A stretch of 64,000 nt of DNA from Parabacteroides distasonis (GTDB lineage Bacteria; Bacteroidota; Bacteroidia; Bacteroidales; Tannerellaceae), in the NCBI GenBank assembly GCA_015060925.1, contig SUXM01000012.1, positions 1 through 64,000 of the forward strand. Reading direction: 5' to 3'. Shown piece after piece: positions 8,271-29,640 of this stretch. The stretch's first letter is position 1. Each line of letters begins with the position of its first letter. The notes below the pieces were generated by a model. The model made no database searches. It had not been told where the DNA came from and worked only from the letters and a program-made list of their open reading frames with translations. Made by a program: the position numbers and the translations under genes.

Positions 8271-8285
8271 ACATTCAGCTAAATC

Positions 8286-9956: not shown

Positions 9957-9979
9957 AAATATCATTCATATTTGTCATT

Positions 9980-10804
9980 ATGGAAACAAAAAGAACTTGG
10001 ACACCCATCAAACAATATGAAGAAATCCTATTCGATTTCTATAACGGGATTGCCCGTATCACAATCAATCGGGAACGTTACCGGAATGCCTTCACTCCCA
10101 CCACGACAACAGAGATAAGTGATGCTTTATACATCTGTCGTGAACGACAAGACATCAACGTAGTCGTCCTAACCGGAGCTGGCAAAGTTGCCTTTTGTGC
10201 CGGTGGTGATATGAATGTGAAAGGACATGGCGGTTATATCGGGAAAGACGGTGTCGCCCGTTTGAACGTATTAGATGTACAGAAGCAAATCCGATCACTA
10301 CCCAAACCGGTCATTGCAGCAGTCAACGGCTTTGCAATTGGAGGAGGTCACGTTTTACATGTTGTATGTGACTTAACAATAGCATCCGAGAATGCGATCT
10401 TCGGACAGACCGGTCCTCGTGTCGGTAGTTTTGATGCCGGCTTCGGTTCCTCCTATTTGGCACGTATCGTCGGACAAAAGAAAGCCCGTGAGATCTGGTT
10501 CCTTTGTCGCAAATACAATGCACAAGAGGCTTTAGAGATGGGATTGGTCAACAAGGTCGTACCATTAGAACAATTAGAAGAGGAATATGTACAGTGGGCA
10601 GAAGAGATGATGCTACACAGTCCGCTTGCGCTTCGTATGATTAAAGCAGGGCTGAATGCTGAATTAGATGGACAAGCCGGAATCCAAGAATTAGCAGGAG
10701 ATGCAACTATGCTGTATTATATGACTGAGGAGGCACAAGAGGGAGGAAAAGCATTCCTTGAGAAGCGTCGTCCCCGTTTTGAAGATTATCCGAAGTTTCC
10801 CTAA
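9980..10804 (+). CDS. menB: MenB, 1,4-dihydroxy-2-naphthoyl-CoA synthase (274 aa)
   Basis: Crotonase-fold enzyme that closes the second ring, turning o-succinylbenzoyl-CoA into 1,4-dihydroxy-2-naphthoyl-CoA. The oxyanion-hole loops are visible: [11 protein letters not shown] (about residue 73) and [20 protein letters not shown] (about 115). The MenB-specific stretch [20 protein letters not shown] follows, and the C-terminal helix ends in FEDYPKFP as in the family. Length is normal. It lies third in the operon, 23 bases after menD and 11 before menC. Confidence 0.97.
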
Positions 10805-12834: not shown

Positions 12835-14678
12835 AATACATTCTGATTTTTATATCCCTATTCTTCGTTACACTCTTTGCCAACGGACAGGGAAGGGAGA
12901 GTTACCAGATTGCCCACGACGTGACTTTGGACAATCCGGAACGGTATGCCTCTTACGATTGCGTAAGCCTATTAGACAGTACAGACGTAACCATTCAACC
13001 CAACGGGTGTAGTTCATACATCATCCGCCGAATCGTCAAAGTCATGAACAAACGTGGTGCAATAGCACACCGTACGCTTAAAGAGAGCTACGACCCCTGG
13101 ATTACACACGCCCAATTTTACCGGGTAACAATTTACAAAGCCAATGGAGATGTATTCAACTTGGACATCACCCAACAACTATACAACATTTCACCGGCTT
13201 GTCTATGGCATCAAGGAGCCCGACAAATCCTAATGGAGGTCGGACACTTAGACCCGGGCGATATTATCGACTACCGAATCAACCTGAAAAGTTTGAGTTC
13301 AGCCCCATTTACGACTGCCCAAACAAATCCATTCCGAAGCATACCCCTTATAAGCGGGCAACCATTCCATGAGATAGTTCCTTTTGAATCACCTATCCCC
13401 ATTGCCCGAAAAGTGTATAAGGTTCATATACCTATGGAGAAAAAGATGCTGTTCCGACAAATTCCTGAAGGCTGTATCTCCTCTTCCTGTTATGAAAACG
13501 ATATGAAAACTTATACCTTTATTCGTACAAATATCCAACCGACCCAACCATCAAATAAGGAACGCTTGTTGGCCGATACCAAGGTTATGTACAATAAGCT
13601 GGCTAAGACATGGACATTAAACCCAGACAGCAGCCAAACATTACGTATCCAAATGGAACTGGATTTGCAGAGCCAAACAGATACAACAGGCATATTTAAG
13701 AAAAGCCTGTTTGTCTACAATCCGCAATACCAAGAACTGTCTATCAACAAGGCCTATATCCGACTGGCTGATGGTACAACCCATCTGATTTCCCAAAAGA
13801 ACTTGGTAGAATGTTTGCCCCATGCGGCTATGAATACTTTTGATTATAACCATCTGAAAGAGCAGGTACTTTTTCTTCCCGAAACGGATCATATCCAAAA
13901 CATCTGCCTGGATTATACCATCCATACACAAGCAGATTACCAGGCAGAATTAGATCTTTTTGAACAGATATACCAATCGTCTCCTGTTAAAAGATATACC
14001 ATTTCCATTACGGTTCCAAAACACAAACCACTCTCCTATGCATTGGCAAACTATTCCGTTAGGTCATCTATCAAACAAATGAATGGTATGTGTACGACTC
14101 AATGGGTATTTAGCTATTTACCGGCAATACAATCTATCTCAAATCCTAAGAAACCCTATCTTACCGCAACAACATATCGCTCGCAAGCAGATGCATTGGC
14201 TACATTTTCCGATCAGTTTGAGATGGAAGAGAATATGCAATTGCTTACTATCGCAGAAGGATTGATAGAAGAGATTGAAGATGAAGTTGAACAGGTAAAA
14301 GCCATTCATAAATATGTACTTGACCATTTCGACAACCTGAGATTGCCATTATCCCTTGCGGCCTATCGCATCCGTCCTTCCGAACAGGTTATCAGCTCGG
14401 CATACGGGACAGAAGCCGAAAAGGCGAACCTGCTATCAGGCCTATTAAACCATGCAGGATTCATTGCCGAACCGGTTGCCATGTATGCAGATGAGAACTG
14501 CAAAGGATTAGGAATGAAAGGCATCTCCCAGCTATTTGTCTCCTGCAAAGTAGGGAAAGATTATTACCTCCTATCTCCTACTTCCGCCACCTTGATCAGA
14601 CCAACAGAAAAAAGACCTTTCACTCTGTTTAGCGTCCATCAAGGAACAGCCCTTTTGAATTACCGGTCAGGAAAGTGA
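12831..14678 (+). CDS. Exported DUF3857 protein with degenerate transglutaminase-like domain (615 aa)
   Basis: The start is the ATG at 12831 that overlaps the menE stop; it yields a standard signal peptide (MKYILIFISLFFVTLFANGQG). Residues about 30-230 are a DUF3857 domain. The C-terminal part resembles a transglutaminase/protease fold (VKAIHKYVLDHF about 490, then YGTEAEKANLLSGLL about 523). In active members this helix begins GDCKDKA; here the Cys position is lost (YGTEAEKA), so thiol catalysis is unlikely. It is probably periplasmic and of unknown function. It is translationally coupled to menE, yet nothing in the sequence ties it to quinones. Its last 19 bases overlap the convergent oxidoreductase gene. 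Confidence 0.75.
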   Translation: MKYILIFISLFFVTLFANGQGRESYQIAHDVTLDNPERYASYDCVSLLDSTDVTIQPNGCSSYIIRRIVKVMNKRGAIAHRTLKESYDPWITHAQFYRVTIYKANGDVFNLDITQQLYNISPACLWHQGARQILMEVGHLDPGDIIDYRINLKSLSSAPFTTAQTNPFRSIPLISGQPFHEIVPFESPIPIARKVYKVHIPMEKKMLFRQIPEGCISSSCYENDMKTYTFIRTNIQPTQPSNKERLLADTKVMYNKLAKTWTLNPDSSQTLRIQMELDLQSQTDTTGIFKKSLFVYNPQYQELSINKAYIRLADGTTHLISQKNLVECLPHAAMNTFDYNHLKEQVLFLPETDHIQNICLDYTIHTQADYQAELDLFEQIYQSSPVKRYTISITVPKHKPLSYALANYSVRSSIKQMNGMCTTQWVFSYLPAIQSISNPKKPYLTATTYRSQADALATFSDQFEMEENMQLLTIAEGLIEEIEDEVEQVKAIHKYVLDHFDNLRLPLSLAAYRIRPSEQVISSAYGTEAEKANLLSGLLNHAGFIAEPVAMYADENCKGLGMKGISQLFVSCKVGKDYYLLSPTSATLIRPTEKRPFTLFSVHQGTALLNYRSGK

Positions 14679-16171: not shown

Positions 16172-17317
16172 TTACTCTTTGACTAACTCAAATCGTTGAA
16201 ATTTCAACCAATCATCATTATAATTGGGATTTTTAAAGTGACTACAACTTATATAAAGGCCATCCTCATTTATAAAATGAGCTGTAGGTACATAAGTATA
16301 TTCAGGAAATAAGGTTTCACCAATTATATTAAAATTATAATCTAATATAAGTATTGAAAATTGTTTTTTACCAGAACGTATAATTTCAAGATAACTATCG
16401 TTATTATCTACTGTTGTATTTGGACAAGCAAACCGATAATAAACATTTCTATATTTGTCATACAACAAATCCTCATAAGTAGCTTCTTCACAGGTTAATC
16501 GTAATATTTTATTAAAATCGTCAGTTTTTAATCTGTTTATTTTTATCTGTGGTATGTATTTACTTTTTAAAATATATTTCTCAGCAGTCTGATGATCTTT
16601 TGAAATCTTATATACTGTATCACTATAAAGAAAAGAATAAATAAAATTTTCTCCATCAAATATACGTCTATATTGATATCCAAATCCTGCACTTGTTCCT
16701 AAATCTTTATAATTAATAAGGTTTGGATACTTAACCAAAGATAGTTCTGTTACATTCTTTGAAGTATCTAATATAGCAGCAAGGCTATTATTTTCTAAAG
16801 TTTTTTCTCCATATATTTTATTAAGATTTTGAGTTAAAAAAATTTTACCATCAATAAATTCTATATTACCCATAGAACTAATCGTTGTTGTTAAAGGAAT
16901 TCCTTCTTTTGTTTTTGAAAAATCATATTTACAAAGAATATTTCCATTTTCATCACTTTTATAAACAAAGGTCGCATATGGACTTGTCAAGTATATTTCA
17001 TCTAAAGTTTTTATGTAAAAATCACCAATACTTTTAATAATACTATTAGCTCCTTCTGTTTTAAATATTATTTTCTTATATAGCTTTTTGGTCTTAAGAT
17101 TATAAATTAACAATTCAGGCTTATCTTTATTTTTAAATGCAATATATTCAGAATCAGTCTTAAAATAAAATATATCATTTAAAGGCATATATGTATCTGA
17201 ACTCAAATTAAATTCTATAAACTCATTTGTACTTTTTAACTCATGAGTATATCTATAATCCTTCTTACTTTTCTGAAAAGAACAGGAAGAAAATAATATT
17301 ATTATAAAAGTACACAA
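16172..17317 (-). CDS. DUF4221-type lipoprotein, probable beta-propeller; start disrupted or TTG (381 aa)
   Basis: Resembles the neighbouring 384-aa protein throughout (DLLYDKYRNVYYRFA, ILDYNFNIIGETLFPE, EDGLYISCSH), placing both in the DUF4221 lipoprotein group, likely surface or periplasmic propellers of unknown ligand. The lipobox LFSSC is at residues 8-12. The frame has no ATG and starts at TTG (17317), giving a leader without the usual Lys residues. An ATG at 17328 (MKEF...) is in another frame. One extra T in the T4 run at 17316-17319 would join them into MKEFLCTFIIILFSSC, a perfect lipoprotein leader. It is therefore either a frameshifted gene, a sequencing slip or a TTG-started gene. 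It is conspicuously AT-rich (13 G/C in 16621-16680). Confidence 0.65.
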   Translation of the reverse strand: MCTFIIILFSSCSFQKSKKDYRYTHELKSTNEFIEFNLSSDTYMPLNDIFYFKTDSEYIAFKNKDKPELLIYNLKTKKLYKKIIFKTEGANSIIKSIGDFYIKTLDEIYLTSPYATFVYKSDENGNILCKYDFSKTKEGIPLTTTISSMGNIEFIDGKIFLTQNLNKIYGEKTLENNSLAAILDTSKNVTELSLVKYPNLINYKDLGTSAGFGYQYRRIFDGENFIYSFLYSDTVYKISKDHQTAEKYILKSKYIPQIKINRLKTDDFNKILRLTCEEATYEDLLYDKYRNVYYRFACPNTTVDNNDSYLEIIRSGKKQFSILILDYNFNIIGETLFPEYTYVPTAHFINEDGLYISCSHFKNPNYNDDWLKFQRFELVKE

Positions 17318-17377: not shown

Positions 17378-18532
17378 CTATTCATTTATTTTAGTCAGAT
17401 CAAATAATTCAAAAGTCAAAAAATCTTCTGATTGATTATAATTCATTTGATAATCACAACTAATATAAAGGCCTTCCTTATGTACAAAAGAGACATAAGA
17501 ATTATACACCCCTTCAGGGAATAAGGTCTCGCCTATTATTTTATAATCTTTATCTAATATAATAATTGAGAATTTCTTTCTTCCATATACAGCTTTACCT
17601 CTCCACTGTATATTATCCTCTAATGATACACTATGATAAGCAAAACGATAATAAACATCTCTATATTTATCATAGAGTAAATCACCATAACGCGCTACTT
17701 CTAAATTCTCTTTTGCTCCTTTTCTAAAATCTTCAGAGGGACTATCCAATGGGATATTATTTATATATTCACTCTTAACTTTCACCTTCTTTATACTATC
17801 ATGATTTATAGAGGTTATAAAAATATTTTCATCTACATAAAATGAATAGACAAAATCTCTTCCATTAAAAACACGACTGAATCGGGTATCTTTACTTTCC
17901 TTCTGTTTCTCTGTTAATACTGTATAATCAAGAGGATGTTGTTTATAAGATTTTAATGTTGAATCTACTACAACCGATATAGGTGTTTTATTTATAGGAT
18001 AAATACGGGAGGCTGATTGCGTTATATAGATTTTATCTTCAATCATAACCGGAGGTATATAAGGATGAGAAGACGGAGTATAAGAGGATAAGATTTTATA
18101 TCCTTCATCCGTTGTTCCATAAGGTATTTTTTGAACTATTTGTTTTGCGGTATCAACCTTGAGTAATCCTGAATAGGTATAAGAGGATAAATAGATATTA
18201 TTAAAATCTTTAATATAATACCCGGAAATAACATTTATACCATTTGGACCTTCTCTTTCAAAATCGACTTTAAAAAGATATTCATTTGTCTCAAAATCAT
18301 AAAACAGAATTTGGTTTGTTCCATAATTAAGAAAGGACAAATAGTTTCGATTATTCTCGTCTTCAAACACATACATATAAAACATATTATATCTCGTCTC
18401 TGAATCTAACGGAAAACTCTTAATCTTTCCGGTGGATAATAAACTATAGTTATATTTTTTTCCCTCTTTTTGTTCATCTTTACAAGAAGAGCATAAAAAA
18501 ATGAACAGGATTAATAAATAAGATAGTTTCAT
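17378..18532 (-). CDS. DUF4221-type lipoprotein, probable beta-propeller (384 aa)
   Basis: Starts with an intact lipoprotein leader, MKLSYLLILFIFLCSSCKDE (Cys at 17). The mature part has repeated strand-turn units typical of six-bladed propellers (residues about 50-370). It shares blocks with the gene downstream, including GDLLYDKYRDVYYRFAYH and IILDKDYKIIGETLFPEG, so the two are tandem paralogues. The function is unknown; related lipoproteins are exported and often surface exposed in Bacteroidales. Base composition is as AT-rich as its paralogue and unlike the flanking genes, suggesting a common foreign origin of the pair. Confidence 0.75.
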   Translation of the reverse strand: MKLSYLLILFIFLCSSCKDEQKEGKKYNYSLLSTGKIKSFPLDSETRYNMFYMYVFEDENNRNYLSFLNYGTNQILFYDFETNEYLFKVDFEREGPNGINVISGYYIKDFNNIYLSSYTYSGLLKVDTAKQIVQKIPYGTTDEGYKILSSYTPSSHPYIPPVMIEDKIYITQSASRIYPINKTPISVVVDSTLKSYKQHPLDYTVLTEKQKESKDTRFSRVFNGRDFVYSFYVDENIFITSINHDSIKKVKVKSEYINNIPLDSPSEDFRKGAKENLEVARYGDLLYDKYRDVYYRFAYHSVSLEDNIQWRGKAVYGRKKFSIIILDKDYKIIGETLFPEGVYNSYVSFVHKEGLYISCDYQMNYNQSEDFLTFELFDLTKINE

Positions 18533-18607
18533 TTTATTATAGATTTTACAATAGTGTATATCAAAAACTATTAGAACGGACTTAATTTCAGATTAGGTCA
18601 GATGTAG

Positions 18608-19627
18608 TTACAACAAACCTTCCATATCCAAATAACCAAATTGGATTTCATCGTTAAAATTGATAAGTAAACGGTTCTTTTCCTGATCATAACAGAAATC
18701 CGATACTTGATAAGATGTCTCCAGTGTTTGGATATAGTTTCCCTCCTTATCAAAAATCAAAAACTGAGTAGGCAAGTTCACACTTTTACCTTGATGCGGA
18801 TTATTCACAAAAGCCTCTTTTCCGGAATACAAAGCTATGAGATGTTCCTTTCCAAACACTACTTTCCTGAAATAATCCCGACCACTCTTTTTCTTCTTCC
18901 AACCGGGGCCATAAATATGTGAAATCAAATTCCCCTCTAAATCAAACAAACTAATCAAATCATACTGATGATACCATTCTACATAACGATGGGATAATAA
19001 ATCGACTGCCATATTAGTTCGCTTTTGTTCTATATCAGGATGTATATATTCCAAAGGAATCATCTCATTTGTACTGATATTCCACTTCGCTATTACCTGG
19101 TCAAATGTCGAACTACTTGTCGGCTTTATAACACGAGCCAAAGCCAACGTATCATTGATGAGGTAATAAGTATCCGGAAACTGTTCAAGCCGTAAAGCAA
19201 TCTCCTCTTTGGGGAAATAAAAGGGATTGGACAATACACTATCTACATGAAACTTAAATATTTTCAATTTTCCATGATCAGAAACATAAAAAATCCTTTT
19301 CTCTTCATCAGTTGCAATATGCCCCAAGATTGTAATCTCTTCTGGTCCCTGTCCTTTATAGGCCGTCCCCGTTAAATATCGGAATGTATTTTTGTCCAAA
19401 AGATGAATCTGTTTATCCACCGCCTTATTATCACGGACAATCAGATAATCCCCCAACAGGCACATTCTGGAGTTATTACTAATCAAGACCTCATCCATGG
19501 GAATCTCTTTAATCCTATCCTGTACATTCACGACCTTATCCCGGCTCTTCTGCCAAATTTCTCCCTTCTTCGACTGAGCACACCCCAAACAAAAAGTAAG
19601 AATCAATAAACTAACAATCTTATACAT
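18608..19627 (-). CDS. BF3164-like lipoprotein, six-bladed propeller type (339 aa)
   Basis: Lipoprotein leader MYKIVSLLILTFCLGCAQSK with Cys at 16. The rest matches the next gene upstream along its whole length: KVVNVQDRIKEI (about 31-42), DKQIHLLDKNTFRYLT, GQGPEEIT and a C-terminus of the form DEIQFGYLDMEGLL against DEKQLVHLDMEGFI. This is the TolB-like/BF3164 group of Bacteroides exported lipoproteins, whose ligand is unknown. It is second in a four-gene run of propeller lipoproteins on one strand, 15 bases after its paralogue. Confidence 0.78.
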   Translation of the reverse strand: MYKIVSLLILTFCLGCAQSKKGEIWQKSRDKVVNVQDRIKEIPMDEVLISNNSRMCLLGDYLIVRDNKAVDKQIHLLDKNTFRYLTGTAYKGQGPEEITILGHIATDEEKRIFYVSDHGKLKIFKFHVDSVLSNPFYFPKEEIALRLEQFPDTYYLINDTLALARVIKPTSSSTFDQVIAKWNISTNEMIPLEYIHPDIEQKRTNMAVDLLSHRYVEWYHQYDLISLFDLEGNLISHIYGPGWKKKKSGRDYFRKVVFGKEHLIALYSGKEAFVNNPHQGKSVNLPTQFLIFDKEGNYIQTLETSYQVSDFCYDQEKNRLLINFNDEIQFGYLDMEGLL

Positions 19628-19642
19628 ATATTCCTTTTTTTA

Positions 19643-20671
19643 TTAAATGAAACCTTCCATGTCCAAATGAACTAACTGTTTCTCATCATCCAAATTCATG
19701 ATAAATCGATTCTTCTCCGCATCATAACAGATATTTATAATAGGAAAACCAACCTGTAATGTTTTCATATAATTACCTTGCAAATCAAAAATCAATAGTT
19801 TATCAGGATAATGAGCATGTTCCCCTCCATTACGTTGATATAATCGTGTATCTCCCCAATAGGTAACAACAATCTTATCCTTACAGAAAAAGACATCTTC
19901 AAAATAGGCATTTTGGTTTGACTTGGTATTGTCAAACTTTTTTCCATAAAGGGTATATTTCAATTCTCCATCCAAAGAGCATATTGTCATCAAATCATGA
20001 TACCAATAGCCCTCTATATACAGATTGTGTTCTGGAGAAACGGCAAAACTCACCCGTTTCTTTTCTATTTCCGGATGTCCGGCATAAGGCATAAAGTCTG
20101 CTTTTCCGGTTTGCATATTCCACTTGGCAACAACCGGAATATAATCTCCCGGATTCAATACTCTCATAAAAAGTGCGTAAGAGAGTGTATCACTCACATA
20201 CTGTATCTTAAAAGGAAATTCATCCCGATTTATATCCGCTTTTTTCACAGGTTTGTAATCAGGATTAGCTAATACACTATCCATCGGGAAAGAGAGAAAG
20301 GCTTGTTTCCCATGATCAATCACATAAAATGTATTTCTTTCGGGATCCGGAACAATCTCCCCCATATTGGTTATTTCAGAAGGACCTTGTCCACGTTCTC
20401 CGACACTGGTCAAATATCGAAACGTATTTTTATCAAAAATATGAATCAACTTATCAAACGACTTATAATCGCTTATAATCAGATATTGATTTAAAAGAAA
20501 CGGACTTCCAAAATCAGAAATATCAACATCTGAAATCGTTATATCATGCAGGCGATTCTGTACATTCACGACCTTCGTTTGGGCATCATATGATTTTATC
20601 CCTTCAGCTTGTTGCTTGCAAGCCGTAAACAACAAAAGCAACATACAAAATAAGAAATAAATCTTTTTCAT
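19643..20671 (-). CDS. BF3164-like lipoprotein, six-bladed propeller type (342 aa)
   Basis: Lipoprotein leader MKKIYFLFCMLLLLFTACKQ with Cys at 18. It has the conserved pieces KVVNVQNRLHDI (about 33), DKLIHIFDKNTFRYLT and GQGPSEITNMGEI, paralogous to the following gene. It is probably the first gene of the lipoprotein run. The nearest perfect -7 box lies about 195 bases upstream, implying a long leader. No enzyme motif is visible; a sensor or binding role on the envelope is only a guess. Confidence 0.78.
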   Translation of the reverse strand: MKKIYFLFCMLLLLFTACKQQAEGIKSYDAQTKVVNVQNRLHDITISDVDISDFGSPFLLNQYLIISDYKSFDKLIHIFDKNTFRYLTSVGERGQGPSEITNMGEIVPDPERNTFYVIDHGKQAFLSFPMDSVLANPDYKPVKKADINRDEFPFKIQYVSDTLSYALFMRVLNPGDYIPVVAKWNMQTGKADFMPYAGHPEIEKKRVSFAVSPEHNLYIEGYWYHDLMTICSLDGELKYTLYGKKFDNTKSNQNAYFEDVFFCKDKIVVTYWGDTRLYQRNGGEHAHYPDKLLIFDLQGNYMKTLQVGFPIINICYDAEKNRFIMNLDDEKQLVHLDMEGFI

Positions 20672-20998: not shown

Positions 20999-21205
20999 TT
21001 ATTCTTCCCTATACTCTAAAATATCTCCGGGTTGGCAGTTTAATTCTTTACATATAGCTTCCAACGTGGAGAAACGGATGGCTTTTGCTTTACCGGTCTT
21101 CAAAATGGAAAGGTTAGCCGGCGTCAAGTCGATACGCTCAGCCAATTCCCCCAACGAAATCTTCCGTTTCGCCATCACCACATCTAAATTGACTATTATA
21201 GACAT
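20999..21205 (-). CDS. Small Xre/Cro-type regulator, YozG-like (68 aa)
   Basis: A single helix-turn-helix domain: KISLGELAERIDLTPANLS covers helices 1-3 and the YozG-like tail FSTLEAICKELNCQPGDIL follows. It is almost exactly the size of YozG-type regulators, which are nearly always encoded beside a DUF2975 membrane protein as here (11 bases apart). It probably binds the palindromes around its own promoter at 21681-21763. Confidence 0.87.
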   Translation of the reverse strand: MSIIVNLDVVMAKRKISLGELAERIDLTPANLSILKTGKAKAIRFSTLEAICKELNCQPGDILEYREE

Positions 21206-21216
21206 AATACCTTCTT

Positions 21217-21648
21217 TTAAATCGTTAAATCTTGTTCCTCTTTCAACAAATAGCCATAACGGAAAACTTCTGCCAAAACAAGCATAAAAGTTCCGGCCAC
21301 CAAATAGGCGGCATGATCTATGGTTACCAACTCCTTTGAAAGTATTCTTTCAATTGCATAAACAAAAACCGGGGAATACAAGGCAATTCCTATGACATAA
21401 AAACAAATATAATTTTGTTTGACAAAGAAGCGTTTCTTATTAATATTCCAGACAAACAGACAAAGACAAAAGCCTATAATCACGTAAGACGTTAATTCTA
21501 ACCCAAACATAATGGCCAACGAGTTATTTCCTTCTGCTAAATGCTGTGTCAATGGTTCATACACCTCGTTATAATGATCGCATACCGTAGAAAAAAGGAA
21601 ACCCATGAAGAATCCGGTTACTACACTTAATGATTTTGTTTTTTTCAT
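21217..21648 (-). CDS. DUF2975 membrane protein (143 aa)
   Basis: Four predicted membrane segments (about 8-24, 45-68, 77-98, 108-130) and the family-typical C-terminal signature FRYGYLLKEEQDLTI. DUF2975 proteins are small integral membrane proteins of unknown function paired with YozG-like regulators, which the next gene encodes. First gene of a two-gene operon with a perfect TTTG-19-TACTTTTG promoter. Confidence 0.82.
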   Translation of the reverse strand: MKKTKSLSVVTGFFMGFLFSTVCDHYNEVYEPLTQHLAEGNNSLAIMFGLELTSYVIIGFCLCLFVWNINKKRFFVKQNYICFYVIGIALYSPVFVYAIERILSKELVTIDHAAYLVAGTFMLVLAEVFRYGYLLKEEQDLTI

Positions 21649-21836: not shown

Positions 21837-21896
21837 GTTTCTGCCCATGAAACTTTTGGTTTCTCGCCTGAAACTCCGAGTTTCATCGGATGAAAC
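21837..21896. repeat. Three tandem GTTTC-N6/7-GAAAC hairpin units
   Basis: Units at 21837-21853, 21859-21874 and 21880-21896 each consist of GTTTC, a 6-7 base spacer and GAAAC. The third contains the ATCGGAT core seen elsewhere in the window. They lie directly before the peptidase terminator copy at 21904. Confidence 0.6.
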
Positions 21897-21938
21897 AAAA
21901 AAATAGCCGGCAGGTAATGTCAAACTACCCGCCGGCTA
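21897..21938 (-). terminator. Terminator, duplicated copy
   Basis: TAGCCGGCAGGTA / TACCCGCCGGCTA stem (21904-21938) followed on the minus strand by seven T. It is a copy of the DPP IV gene terminator at 27098-27139 and would now terminate the cassette transcript. Confidence 0.7.
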
Positions 21939-21975
21939 ATCTCATTTACATCGGATGTAATTTTACAACCTTTCG

Positions 21976-22182
21976 TTATCTTTTCGGAATATCAACCGAA
22001 GTTTCTTGTTCTCCTAACAAATGTTGTGAGAAATAGTCTACCAATCGCCAATAGAAATACTCATTCATATCCCCAAATCCATGGCGTTGTTGTGGCAACA
22101 TCAACATATCAAAACGTTTTCCTGCCTTGATCAATGCTTCTACTACTCGCAAAGTATTTCCCGGGTGAACGTTGTTGTCTAT
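21976..22182 (-). pseudogene. Headless 3' fragment of a DPP IV (S9) peptidase gene
   Basis: Reads DNNVHPGNTLRVVEALIKAG and on to the natural C-terminus ending SVDIPKR, 69 codons including the stop. It is the same as the intact protein encoded at 27177-29618 except for one Leu-to-Met change; the other coding differences are silent. It starts at the catalytic Asp loop and has no start codon (a TAA precedes it in frame), so it is not expressed as a protein. Silent-site divergence indicates it came from a different allele rather than a recent in-place duplication. Confidence 0.9.
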
Positions 22183-22193
22183 ATTGCTTTATC

Positions 22194-23189
22194 TTATTTC
22201 TTTAAATAGCTGTCGATTCGTTTCTTGGCATTTTCGCGGATGTTGTAGTAATACAACTTGTAGTCGCTACCATGCAATGCATACTCGCCGATGCCTTGTT
22301 CGTCGGCAGGCTGTTCGGGCATACCCACAATCAACACTTCGTATTTTCGGGCAGGGTCGTACATCACCTGAGTGGAATAGCGCTCACGAGTGTTCAAAGC
22401 TCCCAAGTGGTGCGGATCGTCGGCTTCCACCTTTTCATAATCGTGCTTCCACGATACCGGATTGATGGACAACGCTCCTTCGTGGCACACTAAGTTGTAG
22501 GAACTGAACTTGCCGTCCTCCATGCGCTCACAATTCCACGAGATGACTACCTGCGTATCGGTCTCTCCCTCGGCAAACTTCAGGTGAGTGAACTTCGCAA
22601 AGTAGTCCTTGGAGTAAGAATATCCCAACGGATAAGCCGCAATCATGCGGCTATATACCTCAGGATGCTCCGCCATGTAGTCCGACAAGAGGAACTTCAG
22701 CACATTGGAACCTTGTGAGTGTCCTGCCAAGATGAACGGACGACCGTTGTTGTAATGCTTCAGATAATACTCGAATGCCGCCAACGCATCGTGGTAAGGC
22801 ACATCGGCCACCAACTGTTCCTGCTCCTCCAATGAGTAGCTCAACGACTTCATGGCATTGAGCTGGCGGTAATAGGGTGCAAAGACATTCGCCACTCCCT
22901 CGAAGCAAGAGGCCTGCCCGTCATACACTCCGGGTACTTTCGCACGCATCGAAGCATTGTCGATGGTGTTTACCAAGCCGTCGGCATCGGTCGGATCCCA
23001 AGCCGTGGGATACAGGTAGAACACATCCGCTTCATGCTCTACGGCGGAAATCTTCACCCAATTAGTGGTATCGGAGTAGTCTATTTCGTAATTCAGTTCC
23101 TCCACTTTTTCATTGTCATCACAAGCAGTAATGCTTACACCTAATATCACAGTCATAAGGGCTGTTCCTATGATTCTGAATGTTTTCAT
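22194..23189 (-). CDS. DUF3089 alpha/beta-hydrolase lipoprotein (331 aa)
   Basis: Lipoprotein leader with lipobox SITAC (Cys at 23), then a serine-hydrolase fold: the nucleophile elbow GHSQGS at about 152-157 and the preceding DVFYLYPTAW block fit the DUF3089 family (lysophospholipase/esterase-like, substrate unknown). Its first ~50 bases resemble the start of the MACPF gene (MKTFRIIGTALMTVIL against MKTFKMTGMALVAVIL), so the leaders share ancestry. It follows the MACPF gene by 20 bases and its stop is 11 bases from the direct repeat. The base composition is much richer in G+C (30 of 60 in 22741-22800) than the lipoproteins to the left. A role in toxin processing, self-protection or lipid attack is speculative. 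Confidence 0.82.
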   Translation of the reverse strand: MKTFRIIGTALMTVILGVSITACDDNEKVEELNYEIDYSDTTNWVKISAVEHEADVFYLYPTAWDPTDADGLVNTIDNASMRAKVPGVYDGQASCFEGVANVFAPYYRQLNAMKSLSYSLEEQEQLVADVPYHDALAAFEYYLKHYNNGRPFILAGHSQGSNVLKFLLSDYMAEHPEVYSRMIAAYPLGYSYSKDYFAKFTHLKFAEGETDTQVVISWNCERMEDGKFSSYNLVCHEGALSINPVSWKHDYEKVEADDPHHLGALNTRERYSTQVMYDPARKYEVLIVGMPEQPADEQGIGEYALHGSDYKLYYYNIRENAKKRIDSYLKK

Positions 23190-23209
23190 CTTGTTCTTTT
23201 TATTCTTGA

Positions 23210-25495
23210 TTATTCACCCCATCTCTTCGGATGCCATACACTCTCTTGGGTACCCCGGTTGATACGCAACTCCTTGTTGGAAATAACCGGCTGAAGCTGA
23301 TGATAGTGGATACCGCCACCCTTGTAGAAATAATTGTCTTTGCTATTGTGCAGCTTGATGCTGTCCTTTTCGAGGCTCATGTCCGCATTCACTTTCCAGA
23401 ATTTTTCGAATGCACTAATCTCACTCTGGTAAGCATTGGCACGCAGTTCAGAGCCACCGGTAGAGGCGATAATCTTTTCAGTATCCACATCACGGATACC
23501 AAAAGCTGTAAGGCGCTTCTTTCTCTGCTTATCTGCATCACTGGCTCCTTCGTCCAACGGTTGCACTATCACACAGCGTTTCTGTACACTCAAGCCAATA
23601 TCCGTGCGAGCATCATCACCTCGCTTGAAATATCCGCTAGGTATTTCGTTTTCGTTTACAAAATTGACATCCAACAAACCATAATTACAGTCTCTTTCTG
23701 AAGCCAAGGCATAGTACCAATAGTGGTCGGAACGGTCAACGGACACATTATATTCGTCTTGCGAAGTTTCCAATGCATAGTAGACATCCTCCTTTACCGG
23801 GCTGTAGGCATTGGCCATCATCGGATAGTACATACGCCATTCCCCACGGTAGTCCTGAGCACAGAACGGTTTCGGATCGCCCTTTTCCTTACCATTCTTT
23901 CCGGCTTTCATCATGACATCCACCAAAAACATAGCACTTCGCTTTTCAGCTGTAATACTGTTCTTCTTGATATAATCCGGCTTAGCTTGACTGATGGCAT
24001 TGACATTGGCGAAATAGTTCTTCAACAGCTTCAACTGATCTTCTGAAGCTTCCTTCTCTTCATGTCGCATTATGAGCATATCCAACAGATTGAATGCCAA
24101 GTCTTCGATTGGATAAATCTTGTGGCCTTCGTCCTCTTCTGCTTCTGTTTCCGTATCACTGGAAAGTTTGTAGCTCATCAGTGTCCAAAGAGCGCTGTTC
24201 TGCTCGATTCCGTTGGTAAACTCAGACCAATCGGATTTACCCAAATGTCCGCCATAAGTCAATTTTGCAGTGAGAGACTTAGTCGTTTCCTGATAATTCT
24301 CGTTCATGTAACTGTACTTTGCATCCACTTCTGTACCATCTATACCAGCTGCTTTCATGGCAAAGACCTGAGCCATGCTTTTGATTTCTGCATTTTGAGG
24401 GTGAGTCACACTTATCCCTACATGGGCATCATAATTCTGTGAAGTCTCGTAAATGTTCTGTTTACGGCCATAAATATATACCCAGCTGGCACCGAAAGCA
24501 CCTCGGGTAATGACATCGGTGCCCCATGTATCCAAAAACTTGACTGCATCGAATCTCGTAGAATCCACTTTCAGCTGTTCGAGAAATTCCGGATTGACCA
24601 ATGTGATGAGCGTCGTATCGAGTTCGTTTCTATTTCCGTCACTTTGGTATCGGCTCATATCCATATCGATTTCATAACAATGGGCTTTAGCGATATTCAA
24701 ACTGAACTCGTAATCCGTAGCGTCCTTTATAGACTGGTCAATACCCAAATCGGCAGAAACATTCAGTTTGGCCGTGATTTTCTGCTTTTCTTTTGAAAAA
24801 ATAATACCGAAAATATTTGCCGAAATGATTTCTTTCTGTCTGAATGTTTTCTGAGCATCTACACCTACATCTAAAGACCAATTGGTAAAGGTTTCTTCCT
24901 TGTCTTGGCAATTCAAGCTGATAAACTTTTCGTTGTAACTCGGATTAGCAGAAATATGGGTTTCCGGTAAATGCTTGATGGCATCGTAGAGAAGTACGCT
25001 TTGGGTGGTATTTCCCAACTTGCCGAACGAGTTGGTTCCCTTACCCAACACACTGCTATACTCGGAGTCCAAACCACTCAAAGAACGTGTGTTTATATCA
25101 TCCTTATAGAAAACGAGGAAAACGACACGTGTCCTTTCTGGTTCGTCTTTCAACGATACTTTCAGCTTGACGATGTGGGCATAGTCGGGTTGCATAGCCT
25201 TGGCTACCGGAATGATGTAACGTGTACCGTTGATTACTTCCTGATCGAATTCATAATAATCGCTTTGGCACTCTAAATCCAGATTCCGCAAGGTAAAAAC
25301 CGGAATGTGGTATTGGTCCAAATTGTTAGCATCAAGTCGGATAATCAACTTGCCATCCATGATGTCCTTTCTACCTTCGATAACTGCTGGTTCGTCAGCA
25401 TACGGGTCAAAATCATCATCGCGTTCGCACGAACTCATCGCGAAAGCGAGTATCACAGCCACAAGGGCCATTCCAGTCATTTTAAATGTCTTCAT
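23210..25495 (-). CDS. MACPF (membrane attack complex/perforin) domain lipoprotein, BSAP-like (761 aa)
   Basis: Predicted pore-forming protein. The start is the ATG at 25495, which gives a lipoprotein leader ending LAFAMSSC (Cys at 23). The MACPF signature region is FLDTWGTDVITRGAFGASW (about residues 320-338), matching the Y/W-G-T-x-(6)-G pattern, with the usual His replaced by Asp and the first Gly of the GG pair by Ala. Amphipathic TMH-like segments lie on either side. The C-terminal ~250 residues (from about 510) are a separate region of unknown fold, which in known family members decides target binding. Bacteroidales secreted antimicrobial proteins (BSAPs) are MACPF proteins that kill related strains; others are of unknown role. 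It is co-directional with the hydrolase and the AraC-type regulator. Confidence 0.85.
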   Translation of the reverse strand: MKTFKMTGMALVAVILAFAMSSCERDDDFDPYADEPAVIEGRKDIMDGKLIIRLDANNLDQYHIPVFTLRNLDLECQSDYYEFDQEVINGTRYIIPVAKAMQPDYAHIVKLKVSLKDEPERTRVVFLVFYKDDINTRSLSGLDSEYSSVLGKGTNSFGKLGNTTQSVLLYDAIKHLPETHISANPSYNEKFISLNCQDKEETFTNWSLDVGVDAQKTFRQKEIISANIFGIIFSKEKQKITAKLNVSADLGIDQSIKDATDYEFSLNIAKAHCYEIDMDMSRYQSDGNRNELDTTLITLVNPEFLEQLKVDSTRFDAVKFLDTWGTDVITRGAFGASWVYIYGRKQNIYETSQNYDAHVGISVTHPQNAEIKSMAQVFAMKAAGIDGTEVDAKYSYMNENYQETTKSLTAKLTYGGHLGKSDWSEFTNGIEQNSALWTLMSYKLSSDTETEAEEDEGHKIYPIEDLAFNLLDMLIMRHEEKEASEDQLKLLKNYFANVNAISQAKPDYIKKNSITAEKRSAMFLVDVMMKAGKNGKEKGDPKPFCAQDYRGEWRMYYPMMANAYSPVKEDVYYALETSQDEYNVSVDRSDHYWYYALASERDCNYGLLDVNFVNENEIPSGYFKRGDDARTDIGLSVQKRCVIVQPLDEGASDADKQRKKRLTAFGIRDVDTEKIIASTGGSELRANAYQSEISAFEKFWKVNADMSLEKDSIKLHNSKDNYFYKGGGIHYHQLQPVISNKELRINRGTQESVWHPKRWGE

Positions 25496-25554
25496 TGCTC
25501 TATTTAATATTATTATTTTATAGAACAAAAAAACGATTGAAAAATGAAAGTGAT

Positions 25555-25616
25555 GTTGCAGATTTACAAAACTTGTGTTGCAGATTTACAAAAAATGATA
25601 TTGCAAATATACAAAA
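25555..25616 (-). repeat. Three 17-base direct repeats with 22-23 base period upstream of the MACPF gene
   Basis: GTTGCAGATTTACAAAA (25555-25571), the same again (25577-25593) and ATTGCAAATATACAAAA (25600-25616). The period is about two helical turns. On the minus strand the third copy holds TATATTTG (25611 to 25604), a perfect -7 box about 110 bases before the MACPF start. They are likely operators, perhaps for the adjacent AraC-type protein. Confidence 0.55.
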
Positions 25617-25693
25617 CGCAACTCCTATTTATATAAAAAGAGGCAAAAAATGCAAAAATCGCCCATTTCATCGAAGAAATGGGCGGTGCTTAT

Positions 25694-26755
25694 TTATTTT
25701 GAGCCTTCGGCAAACTCGGTAGGAGAAACTCCTTTCAACTTCTGGAAATGCCTCCAGGCAGTGGAACGATGACGATAGCCAGCTTCGATGAAAAGTTCCT
25801 GTATATTGGCATCGGGATTGTGCTTCAACCGTTCGGCCACATAGTCGATGCGACGCTTGGTAATGTATTCGCCGAAAGTCATTCCCGTATGAAGCTTGAA
25901 AGCTTCACCCACATAAGTGCGGTTGGAGAATAGCTGTTTGGTGAGAGAAGACATATCCATGTCGGGGTTGCGCCAACCTTCATTCTCCTCGACAATTCTC
26001 ATGATTTTTATCCAGAGCTCATCGTCCACGAAATCGGTAGAAGCTGTATCAGGCTTGAGATAATCCTGCGTCGAAGGGGAAACAATAATACGTTCCCTCA
26101 GCTCGTAATAGGCTACACCGAAGAAGAACGCCATCCATACCAACTGATGCAGGAGTATCAGCCAATAAGCATGCGACAGCTGGATAGAGAAATGAAGCAC
26201 TCCTATCAGGCAGAAGCCTGTGGCATAGGTCATGATGAACTTGCGATCGGCACTGCTCCGACGCCAGTCGTAGGGAACCAGGAACAGGGCGAAGGCATAG
26301 GAGAGCATGATTACCAGCGAAAGCAGACGGAACCATACATTGAACTCACCGATGTGCTGCCAGATGTCGGCATAGGTATGGAGGGGAGTATATTCGATGC
26401 CTGCACACATGCCAACGAACGCCAGCATCAGCAAGGGGGCAAAAAGGCATGCATACACTTTGGGACGGCTGGCAGTGGGGTTGATCACTTCCAAGGGATA
26501 CAGGAAATAGGATATCTGTATGAGAAGGGGCACGAAGGTATGCTCCGGTTCAAAGAAATCACCATCTGCAGTGGTCGTTTCTGTCCAGGTACGGAAGATG
26601 AATGTCAAAGTAAAAAGGGCAGACACCCAGCTGAGTATTGCCTGAATGGTTCGTGAGTAGTCATTCGTCTCTTTGCGTTTCCTCCACAAAAGTATACCGC
26701 ATACGACGAGAATAATGGTCATTAAAACCAAAAAAAGTGTAGCAATATATCGCAT
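25694..26755 (-). CDS. AraC-family regulator with N-terminal seven-TM domain (353 aa)
   Basis: Seven hydrophobic segments (about 3-25, 40-56, 75-95, 102-122, 141-161, 172-194, 197-219), then a linker and a C-terminal AraC double helix-turn-helix (about 265-350). The second HTH ends in GYRHRSTAWRHFQKLKGVSPTEF, the hallmark of the family. A membrane-embedded sensor fused to a DNA-binding domain is a known Bacteroidetes architecture. The position (first in the cassette, 165 bases before the MACPF gene's long upstream region) suggests it controls that gene. The gene is G+C-rich compared with the chromosome around it. Confidence 0.85.
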   Translation of the reverse strand: MRYIATLFLVLMTIILVVCGILLWRKRKETNDYSRTIQAILSWVSALFTLTFIFRTWTETTTADGDFFEPEHTFVPLLIQISYFLYPLEVINPTASRPKVYACLFAPLLMLAFVGMCAGIEYTPLHTYADIWQHIGEFNVWFRLLSLVIMLSYAFALFLVPYDWRRSSADRKFIMTYATGFCLIGVLHFSIQLSHAYWLILLHQLVWMAFFFGVAYYELRERIIVSPSTQDYLKPDTASTDFVDDELWIKIMRIVEENEGWRNPDMDMSSLTKQLFSNRTYVGEAFKLHTGMTFGEYITKRRIDYVAERLKHNPDANIQELFIEAGYRHRSTAWRHFQKLKGVSPTEFAEGSK

Positions 26756-27095
26756 AAAAAGGGGCGTTACAGAAAATATATATCAGCAGCCCTATCGGAT
26801 GTACATTTTACTTTACTGAAATATGTTATCAAAAAATTATTCATATTCCAAGCCACTAATATATTTCAATACACAAAAATAACTAAAAATTTGATACGAC
26901 ATATCGGAGGTTACATTATTTCTTACATGACCAATGATAATTAGTATAAAACTTTTCAATATGATGGTATCATTACAATCTTTATTCAAGTTCAACGCAA
27001 TTTTTGCATAAAATATTAGGGAAATGCTGACTCTGTATTTATGCTCGCAACATAAATAATATCCAAACAATAAATACTATTCACCCATAAATTAT
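26756..27095. other. Region between the AraC-type gene and the right repeat
   Basis: 340 AT-rich bases without a convincing gene. A partial ATCGGATGTA motif is at 26794-26803. This must hold the promoter of the AraC-type gene, but no exact TAnnTTTG box is visible. A 77-codon frame on the minus strand (27070 to 26837) is AT-rich and looks non-coding. Confidence 0.4.
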
Positions 27096-27383
27096 ACAAA
27101 AAAATAGCCGGCAGGTAATATCAAACTACCCGCCGGCTAATCTCATTTACATCGGATGTAATTTTACATCCTTTCGTTATCTTTTCGGAATATCAACCGA
27201 AGTTTCTTGTTCTCCTAACAAATGTTGTGAGAAATAGTCTACCAATCGCCAATAGAAATACTCATTCATATCCCCAAATCCATGACGCTGTTGCGGTAAC
27301 AACAACATATCAAAACGTTTTCCGGCTTTGATCAATGCTTCTACTACTCGCAAAGTATTTCCCGGGTGAACGTTGTTGTCTAT
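27096..27383. repeat. Right 288-bp direct repeat flanking the MACPF cassette
   Basis: Partner of 21895-22182. Here the peptidase part is continuous with the intact gene. It shares only 'ac' plus the A run at its outer edge and ends at 27383, exactly where the fragment's homology stops. Confidence 0.93.
27098..27139 (-). terminator. Terminator of the DPP IV peptidase gene
   Basis: TAGCCGGCAGGTA / TACCCGCCGGCTA stem at 27105-27139 with seven T following on the minus strand. Confidence 0.7.
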
Positions 27384-29618
27384 GTCACCATGAATCAACA
27401 TCAAATGTCCTTTCAATTGTTTGGCTATCTCCGGATTGGATTTAATACTATAAACAAATGTAGTATCTCCCTTTTCACTTACCACCTCTTTTACTCCGTG
27501 ATGGGTTTCACTCCACCAACGGTTGTAGATGCGGTTATCATGGTTTCCGGCACAAGAAACCGCCGCTTTAAAGAAGTCCGGATATTGAAGGATGGCTGCA
27601 GTCGACATAAATCCGCCACCGGAGTGTCCATGAATACCTACACGATTGATGTCGATAAATTTATGACGATCTGCCAATTGGATGATAGCTGCTTTCTGAT
27701 CTGCCAAACCATAGTCACGTAAATTACCATAGCTGTAGTTATGATACCACTTAGAACGGCTTGGGTGTCCACCACGGTTACCAACTGTCACCACAATAAA
27801 CCCGGCCTGTGCCAAACGGTCAGTACGAACGCCCATACGGGTAAACGGATAAACGGTTGCCTCTACCTGCGGACCCGGATAGACATAATCAATGATCGGG
27901 TAAACCTTTGTGGAATCAAAGTTAAACGGTTTATACATGACCCCATACAAATCGGTCACACCGTCAGCCGCTTTCACCTTGAACGGTTCAGGGAACTGGT
28001 AACCAGCTGCCAACAACTGAGAGAAATCACTCTCTTCCAATGTCATGATTTTACGGCCGTTGCTATCCAACAAATCCGTCTTCGGAATCGTGTTGACACG
28101 AGAGTAGTTGTTTACGACAAAAGCGGCATCATCATCAATACTTGCCATGTGGAAATAGTCACCAGCTGTCACCAACTGCAAATTGCTACCATCCAAGTTA
28201 GCCCTGTACAGATGTTCGTAATAGGGATTCTCACCTGTTTCTTTTCCATTTGCTGTAAAGTAAACCACCCGTTTCGCTTCATCAATCTTGACAATCTGAT
28301 CCACATGCCAAGGACCGCGGGTAATACGGTTCTTTAAATTTCCTTTATCGTCATAGAGATACAGATGTGCCCATCCATCTCGTTCACTCCAATGAACCAA
28401 CTCTTTGCCATTACCGATAGCTGCCAACGGACGAACCTCTTGGTAGGTATTCATGCGTTCTTCGATAATCGGGCAAAGCGTATCCTGTCCGATGGTATAA
28501 GAGCAGATATCGATACGATGCAGGTCACGGCTCGAACGGGTCACAAAGAAGCGATTGTTATCACCCAACCAAACACTCGCTAACTCTCTTTTGCTTCTCT
28601 CCTTCTGCAAACGAGGCTTGCGAGCCAAACGCAAAGTCTGGTCTTTGAAAGCAGATGTTTGGATCTCCTTGTAGCTGTTGTTGCTCATATCAAACAGATA
28701 CAAATGTTGTATAGGAGCCTCTTTTTCACCCGGCATCTGGTATTTGTAAGTCTCCAATGTCGGACGAGGAGAAGCCATGGAGTTGATGACCCAAAGGTCT
28801 TTCACCTGCCGTTCGTCTTCCAAGGTAACAGCAAAGTAACGAGAGTCGGGTGACCACACGATTCCCCACACCCCTTTACGTTTTCCATTACATAACGTGT
28901 CTGTATTCAGCAAGCTATAAGGTTGCCCGAAGCCGAAATCCTTCACACCGAATGTTGTCAACTGTATATCTGTGACCGTACTGTCTTTGTCATCCTTTTT
29001 CAGTTTTTCATAATCTTCACGTGACATACGGTACAGATTCAAGTCTTTCGCATAGACAACCGTCTGGCCATCCGGAGAGATGGATGCCCAATTCGGATAT
29101 TCTATATCCTTCTTTTTGTCTTCTAACCAGGTCAATTTCTTGGTCGGATAATCGTATGAGAAATAAAATATCTCCTTTTTATTCTTAGGAGCTTTCTTAT
29201 CGGTTGTATCTTTCTTCGCATCCTTTGAAGAAACTATATGGAATGTGAAGGTTCGTCCATCCTCTTGCGCTTCCAATTTCTGGATAGGCAACTGTTGGGC
29301 AGTAAAAGGATCTTTGACTATTTCCGTAATTTGAGCCGCAAGGTTATCCAAATCGAACAAAGGCCGTTTGGTCTTGGCTGTCGGATCCACTACATACCAC
29401 GCCTTTCCGTTGCTGGTCTTGTATTCATACCAAAAGCTATTCCCTTTCTGGAACCAATGGGGATCCACAGTCGTGGAGAATAACATGGTATTTAACTTAT
29501 CAAGCGTGAAACGTTCTGCTTGTACATATCCCGGCAGACGTTCTGTACTTTGGGCTTGTGCTTCTACACCAACTAACAGGCCGGCACAAAGCAATAAAGA
29601 GCATACATGTTTTTTCAT
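27177..29618 (-). CDS. Exported dipeptidyl peptidase IV-type S9 prolyl peptidase (813 aa)
   Basis: Serine peptidase that removes X-Pro/X-Ala dipeptides, acting in the periplasm or on the cell surface. The start is the ATG at 29618 (MKKHVCSLLLCAGLLVGVEA), a standard signal peptide; a GTG four codons earlier is not needed. Residues about 60-540 form the DPP IV beta-propeller. The hydrolase domain has the nucleophile in GHSGGGF (about 665), Asp in GDIDNNV (about 744) and His in QQRHGFGD (about 777). Full length. Its 3' end and terminator are duplicated 5.2 kb to the left, so its last ~69 codons may derive from an incoming allele. It directly follows the ATPase operon terminator. Confidence 0.9.
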   Translation of the reverse strand: MKKHVCSLLLCAGLLVGVEAQAQSTERLPGYVQAERFTLDKLNTMLFSTTVDPHWFQKGNSFWYEYKTSNGKAWYVVDPTAKTKRPLFDLDNLAAQITEIVKDPFTAQQLPIQKLEAQEDGRTFTFHIVSSKDAKKDTTDKKAPKNKKEIFYFSYDYPTKKLTWLEDKKKDIEYPNWASISPDGQTVVYAKDLNLYRMSREDYEKLKKDDKDSTVTDIQLTTFGVKDFGFGQPYSLLNTDTLCNGKRKGVWGIVWSPDSRYFAVTLEDERQVKDLWVINSMASPRPTLETYKYQMPGEKEAPIQHLYLFDMSNNSYKEIQTSAFKDQTLRLARKPRLQKERSKRELASVWLGDNNRFFVTRSSRDLHRIDICSYTIGQDTLCPIIEERMNTYQEVRPLAAIGNGKELVHWSERDGWAHLYLYDDKGNLKNRITRGPWHVDQIVKIDEAKRVVYFTANGKETGENPYYEHLYRANLDGSNLQLVTAGDYFHMASIDDDAAFVVNNYSRVNTIPKTDLLDSNGRKIMTLEESDFSQLLAAGYQFPEPFKVKAADGVTDLYGVMYKPFNFDSTKVYPIIDYVYPGPQVEATVYPFTRMGVRTDRLAQAGFIVVTVGNRGGHPSRSKWYHNYSYGNLRDYGLADQKAAIIQLADRHKFIDINRVGIHGHSGGGFMSTAAILQYPDFFKAAVSCAGNHDNRIYNRWWSETHHGVKEVVSEKGDTTFVYSIKSNPEIAKQLKGHLMLIHGDIDNNVHPGNTLRVVEALIKAGKRFDMLLLPQQRHGFGDMNEYFYWRLVDYFSQHLLGEQETSVDIPKR

Positions 29619-29640
29619 TTTTCCTATCACATAGAGTTTT

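Follow-up and report, generated by a model that had tools for sequence, protein, structure and literature searches.

Why should the last part of a peptidase gene occur twice, once on the gene itself and once without it? The question is raised by a stretch of 64,000 nucleotides of Parabacteroides distasonis (GenBank assembly GCA_015060925.1, contig SUXM01000012.1, positions 1 to 64,000; hereafter the window), in which a DPP IV-type peptidase gene is followed by three further genes on the same (minus) strand and then by a second, headless copy of its own 3' end. We suggest, with a probability of roughly 0.7, that the three genes are an acquired cassette akin to those of the Bacteroidales secreted antimicrobial proteins (BSAPs), which carry a MACPF domain (PMC4999547; PMC12853789), and that it was integrated behind DPP IV via recombination that used the final ~290 bp of the peptidase gene as its anchor. 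An acquired block with three genes had already been proposed in an earlier, sequence-only reading of this DNA, and that proposal is largely supported, although the nature of the cargo, a putative toxin cassette, was not recognised there.

Positions 21895-22182 and 27096-27383 match at a constant offset of 5201, and an exact count (279 of 288 matches, nine mismatches) gives the same figures as had been estimated by eye; at offsets of 300-39999, no other ungapped 288-bp comparison of the window with itself exceeds 184 matches, a value reached by a tandem gene pair. The repeat block widens to 293 bp with 11 mismatches and stops where the T-run of the terminator ends. Both copies comprise the last 68 DPP IV codons, the stop codon and the terminator on the minus strand (terminator folding z-scores of -7.3 and -6.6), the right copy being joined to the whole gene and the left one headless, just as first described. 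The anatomy is that of an intact gene with its terminator, the cassette, a headless end with its terminator, and resident DNA (Table 1), and neither the open reading frames nor Pfam revealed an integrase gene in the cassette, in keeping with the earlier remark that it holds no integrase or transposase.

Table 1. Features of the DPP IV locus, in window coordinates.
Feature	Position	Strand	Evidence
DUF2975 and HTH_26 genes, resident neighbours; adjoin DPP IV at the empty site	20999..21648	-	Pfam; L037 comparison
Left border of cassette: headless DPP IV end with 68 codons, stop and terminator	21890..22182	-	Repeat match, terminator fold
DUF3089 lipoprotein, 331 aa, alpha/beta hydrolase, GHSQG motif	22194..23189	-	Pfam PF11288 9.8e-46
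MACPF-domain lipoprotein, 772 aa as listed, BSAP-like toxin candidate	23210..25528	-	Pfam PF01823
AraC-type regulator, 353 aa, hydrophobic N-terminal half (by eye)	25694..26755	-	HTH_18 6.3e-15
AT-rich leader, DPP IV terminator to AraC gene, right end of cassette	26756..27090	-	No match to L037 intergenic DNA
DPP IV 3' end and terminator of intact gene (right copy)	27091..27383	-	L037 alignment continues to 27087
Resident S9 peptidase gene of DPP IV type, whole	27177..29630	-	Pfam DPPIV_N 4.1e-40, Peptidase_S9 2.1e-36

A natural empty site is found in Parabacteroides sp. RGIG7277 from water buffalo caecum (contig JAFYOM010000117.1, here L037, apparently identical with genome G029 of our genus set). 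This contig carries V-ATPase genes, DPP IV, one DPP IV end, ~250 bp, and then the DUF2975, HTH, beta-propeller and DUF4221 genes, which is the gene order of the window minus 5.2 kb, with one beta-propeller gene against the window's two, and its DPP IV protein is 97% identical to that of the window. The sequence-only reading had proposed looking for a relative with a single end and DPP IV directly beside DUF2975, and L037 is such a relative; relatives do not, then, all share the arrangement, the outcome that it had named as telling against acquisition. The wider genus gave the same picture. Among 38 genomes (source genome, G000, included) searched at E 0.001, the DPP IV end was matched in 26, with two full copies only in the source; of the 37 others, 25 have one end, 12 have no match and none has a second full end. 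Short terminator-like matches number two in the source genome (70 and 29 bases) and one in G029 (30 bases).

The flanks of the cassette differ in their similarity to L037. Over the V-ATPase genes and DPP IV through its terminator, nucleotide identity is 87.7% (83.5-92.5% per 200 bp) and shows no step at 27383; the headless copy is 82-90% identical per 100 bp, and the DNA to the left of ~21700 is 86-97% identical, with the beta-propeller/DUF4221 block (window 17640-19540) reaching 92.5-100% as against the 87.7% of DPP IV and V-ATPase. Because identity in the left flank exceeds that in the right, the AT-rich left flank is, as judged from these values, the one exchanged more recently between the two lineages; this exchange and the entry of the cassette may or may not have been one event. 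The single beta-propeller gene of L037 (4772-5794) resembles a hybrid between the two tandem paralogues of the window (18608-20671).

Base composition had also been offered as an argument for foreign origin, which we reject on gene-by-gene values. The MACPF, AraC and DUF3089 genes have 43.3%, 48.1% and 49.3% G+C, as compared with 43.9% for DPP IV and 41.1-44.7% for four V-ATPase genes; what stands out is the left flank, which is AT-rich, with DUF4221 genes of 24.2 and 28.4%. The earlier view that foreign DNA entered at the 3' end of the peptidase gene and left the gene intact is largely upheld by the empty site of L037, without help from G+C.

The differences between the two ends bear on how they came to be there. 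Six of the codon differences are silent and one is a replacement (Leu to Met), as had been claimed for most of them, the Met codon being present also in L038 and L039; without constraint, the chance of at least six silent differences among seven is P 4e-4 to 2.5e-3. Relative to L037 the two ends show 24/0 and 27/1 silent/replacement differences. Because differences from L037 and between the copies are almost all silent, both ends have a history as parts of functional genes, and the same silent excess traces the odd bases to a gene that was whole. When the nine mismatches are polarised by L037, six are odd in the headless copy, one is odd in the gene's copy and two are unassignable. The copy on the whole gene therefore looks resident, which bears on the question, raised earlier, of which copy is nearer the resident allele, and it is the headless copy that holds the odd bases.

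Seven of the nine mismatches fall within 43 bp, while the other 245 bp hold two. Only 226 of 200,000 uniform draws were as tight; if only third codon and non-coding positions are allowed to vary, the figure is 3,066 of 200,000 and the clustering is modest. Since the copies hardly differ beyond this one patch, they fit two uniformly diverged alleles less well than a recombination mosaic, in which an end that is mostly resident has received a small segment from a foreign DPP IV allele. This refines the earlier reading as diverged alleles, whose mostly silent differences stand. No close donor for the 43-bp patch was found among 44 distinct DPP IV stretches (the window's two included), the best other match to the headless-copy patch being that of the sister genome G029 (43/51).

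Turning to the cargo, the central gene encodes a lipoprotein whose likely start is an ATG at ~25495 (homology begins at residue 12). Its match to the MACPF family (PF01823, residues 311-434, E 7.6e-5) scores 23.4 bits against a Pfam cut-off of 21.5 and lies above the cut-off in both profile searches. A putative lipoprotein signal is visible by eye (...FAMSSC-ERDDD), and its cysteine, C34, is invariant in an alignment of the protein with six relatives, which are 24-34% identical to it over most of its length. Relatives of the protein occur in 4 of 59 relatives and in 5 of 393 genomes of the order (source genome in both counts), and none found in either set exceeds 36% identity. The family of G302 has them in two of seven genomes, both already known, and a profile search of the family of G434 gave 7 of 301 genomes, six of them weak. 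PF01823 itself is sporadic, being matched in 24 of the 393 genomes, 21 above cut-off, again with the source included. The C-terminal half of the protein has no Pfam match at E 0.01, and a single-sequence search of solved structures gave none at E 0.01. Carriage on plasmids or phages was considered and rejected, no relative of the protein being present in the plasmids, phages or viral contigs searched. By analogy with the BSAPs, a class of antibacterial pore-formers, the MACPF lipoprotein probably kills close relatives of its producer. As for the AraC-type regulator, the closest one to it (52%) lies upstream of DUF3575, DUF5119 and fimbrillin-like genes (L145, G029:C307, 752-1873), in the sister genome whose cassette site is empty.

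The third gene encodes a DUF3089 protein in which S158, D211 and H306 are invariant in seven aligned proteins. Its stop codon and the headless DPP IV end are 11 bp apart; a cassette transcript would therefore end at the terminator of the headless copy. DUF3089 relatives occur in 8 of the 38 genus genomes (source included), and an unrooted tree of eight rows (one from the window, one for each G147 domain, and five from elsewhere in the genus, where seven matches were available and the two shortest were omitted) splits the MACPF-linked DUF3089s of the window and G147 from the five other Parabacteroides DUF3089s on a branch with support of 100/99. None of these five has a relative of the window's MACPF protein in its fetched flanks (blastp).

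Parts of the cassette recur elsewhere. In G147, a genome of a different family, the MACPF gene is followed directly by a frame with two DUF3089 domains, and in G209 and G302 an AraC regulator gene lies directly upstream of the MACPF gene; besides the window, the tally is one locus for the MACPF-DUF3089 pair and two loci, in one genus, for AraC-MACPF. The best evidence that DUF3089 would be a partner, and not a passenger, of the toxin is the tree grouping together with the linkage, seen at two loci only. In G008 the immediate upstream neighbour of the closest MACPF relative is an acyltransferase gene (PF01757; L147, G008:C11, 7752-8888), a possible hint that these toxins are associated with the chemistry of surface esters.

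The AraC-MACPF pairs of G302 and G209, sister species of another family, share 93.6% identity over 3.6 kb although the sites that they occupy are unrelated. At the counterpart of the G302 site, G209 has no AraC-MACPF pair and instead two tandem lipoprotein genes, the arrangements being HAD-X1-X2 in G209 and HAD-X, AraC-MACPF and the end of X in G302. In G302 the second tandem lipoprotein gene thus appears to have been replaced by the cassette except for its end, and because such a replacement accounts for the bracket, no insertion-made duplication is needed there. No transposase or integrase was noticed inside the G302 and G209 units (by eye) or the window cassette.

How, then, might the window's arrangement have come about? 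A Parabacteroides lineage would have acquired the AraC-type regulator, the MACPF lipoprotein and the DUF3089 lipoprotein hydrolase on DNA that brought its own DPP IV end, either as a circle, with the cassette and the DPP IV end, that entered by a single crossover, or as a linear piece with a homologous joint on one side and an illegitimate joint on the other. The single crossover of a circle and one-sided illegitimate recombination anchored by homology give the same anatomy, which is equally expected from both. DPP IV would stay whole and the second end, with its terminator, would stop the cassette transcript. The MACPF protein, displayed on the surface, would kill near relatives, and the DUF3089 enzyme would alter the surface of the producer, or otherwise assist, and so spare it.

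The two ends might instead be the attachment sites of a non-autonomous integrative element whose integrase is encoded elsewhere or has been lost, much as in cis-mobilizable elements or in e14 and phage 21 at icd. Attachment sites typically show a duplicated gene end that includes a terminator and differs mainly at silent positions, and elements flanked by such sites are known by att-like direct repeats at the 3' end of a gene and by a related, integrase-bearing element at the same site. The 293-bp DPP IV repeat is of this kind, with its mostly silent differences and its finish at the end of the terminator T-run, and one Parabacteroides locus of the 17 compared, L052, has Phage_int_SAM_5 integrase fragments at distances of ~4.5 and 6.3 kb behind DPP IV. 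Yet the cassette has no integrase, the 37 other genus genomes have no second end, and among 65 proteins of at least 150 aa encoded within 6 kb behind DPP IV in the 17 loci an integrase appears only at L052, among the families listed (25 of 82), with no integrase family among those matched by at least two of these proteins. The model moreover puts the incoming end on the gene, yet the gene's copy looks resident, and we consider this explanation unlikely. At L052 itself, in Parabacteroides bouchesdurhonensis, the integrase fragments lie among near-identical tandem blocks (~+3.1 to +8.3 kb behind DPP IV), each with a frame that by eye resembles a radical-SAM enzyme.

That the contig is an assembly product, merging an empty chromosome with a separate molecule (for instance a 5.2-kb circle of the cassette and one end) or two strains, is a doubtful proposition. 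An identical run such as that shared by the two ends could tangle a short-k graph, and the same graph would permit an empty chromosome plus a circle; the ends nonetheless differ at nine places, no other full copy was found, and the contig continues in L037 gene order on both sides. Least probable of all, in our judgement, is that the headless end is what is left of an older tandem copy of DPP IV, replaced save for its end. G302 and G209 provide the precedent, but each of the 25 other matching genus genomes has one DPP IV end, and the window's ends are 96.9% identical whereas the two ends of G302 are 86% identical.

Several observations weigh against an acquired BSAP-like cassette recombined into the DPP IV end, and are best taken together. 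The source assembly is a draft (41 contigs, 88% complete) and probably metagenome-assembled, and an identical run of 115 bp is common to both ends. The MACPF assignment, though above cut-off, is weak: a profile search of solved structures gave four distinct PDB sequences, all complement C8 alpha, at E 0.04-0.09, and a single-sequence AlphaFold model of the protein (pLDDT 29.9) is useless. No DUF3089 relative lies beside the MACPF gene in G008, G209, G302, G271, G011 or G001, and the G302 case is a caution for the window's bracket, although no tandem DPP IV was seen. The neighbours of the window's toxin candidate are DUF3089, AraC, DPP IV and DUF2975 genes, with no outer membrane protein gene or O-antigen or glycan locus of the kind described for BSAP-1 and BSAP-2. 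Finally, direct repeats are not clearly commoner around MACPF genes than around random places: in a lax survey of 38 loci (40-800 bp, 80% identity), 5 of 44 MACPF places are spanned by such repeats, as compared with 349 of 7600 places drawn at random from these loci.

A general rule of MACPF cassettes bracketed by gene ends is accordingly not upheld. A gene end paired with a headless copy was seen in 3 of 111 loci of at least 8 kb (2.16 Mb), all three among the 27 with a MACPF place, namely the window, L149, whose bracket is traced to tandem paralogues, and L173, whose bracket adjoins its MACPF gene and does not enclose it. The five spanned MACPF places are those of the window, L149, L178 (a tandem-repeat array), L187 (repeats of 50 bp at 80-82%) and L192; around the unit of L148 there is a repeat pair of 73%, under the 80% limit. 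In L192 (G435:C20:76001-95000) a perfect 51-bp direct repeat (7862-7912 and 10623-10673) stands near both sides of a MACPF gene (8049-10667, minus strand, Pfam 1.9e-7) with an adjacent AraC/TPR regulator, and is possibly the footprint of a single-gene insertion. In L173 (G042:C15:35501-55500) a 378-aa gene of unknown family has a second, headless copy of its end (13789-14136 and 16901-17247; 348 bp, 96%), the two copies enclosing a 271-aa DUF2971-like gene (below cut-off) and a 343-aa gene ~3 kb from the MACPF gene. L187 (G714:C13:29001-49000) has, between two MACPF-related genes, a C10 peptidase gene that also encodes a Spi inhibitor domain and whose 3' end is duplicated upstream (334 bp, 80%).

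Among known systems, the proposed mode of entry has its nearest parallel in the toxin modules of the Vibrio cholerae type VI secretion system, for which homology-facilitated illegitimate recombination is proposed in PMC5361080. As outlined there, a toxin module enters at a homologous anchor without an integrase and the displaced genes remain; the leftover is an immunity gene in that case, whereas in the window it is the end of an unrelated peptidase gene. The hydrolase shares its DUF3089 domain and GHSQG motif with esterases of lipolytic family XV such as Est10 (PMC4431682), but differs from them in being MACPF-linked in two families and in standing apart from the five Parabacteroides DUF3089s.

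The closest comparison is with the BSAPs, which the cassette resembles in its Bacteroidales host, its MACPF domain, its sporadic distribution and, by eye, a putative lipoprotein signal whose cysteine is followed by acidic residues. It differs in having an AraC regulator and a DUF3089 hydrolase in place of a substitute receptor gene, and PF18885, PF20779 and PF20785, given in PMC12853789 as C-terminal domains of groups 1 and 2, have no match at E 0.01 in the window. According to PMC4999547, producers of BSAP-1 and BSAP-2 survive by means of a substitute surface molecule encoded beside the toxin gene, and BSAP genes are suggested there to have been co-acquired with their neighbours. Because no substitute receptor gene lies beside the window's toxin candidate, protection would most naturally fall to the hydrolase, which might act by editing a surface ester or lipid; we consider such self-protection less likely than not, and the enzyme may instead serve in processing or have an unrelated role. 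More speculatively still, some Bacteroidales MACPF toxins may have a dedicated surface hydrolase, of a distinct DUF3089 group, that protects the producer by editing its own receptor, the pair spreading free of integrases with the end and terminator of a housekeeping gene as its landing pad. As a weapon, the cassette would be a variant within a family already known and not a new type of system, and with its natural empty site, its recombination footprint and its recurrent enzyme partner it makes the movement of BSAPs and the survival of their producers directly testable. If DUF3089 does confer self-protection, an enzymatic route would exist alongside the receptor swapping of BSAP-1 and BSAP-2.

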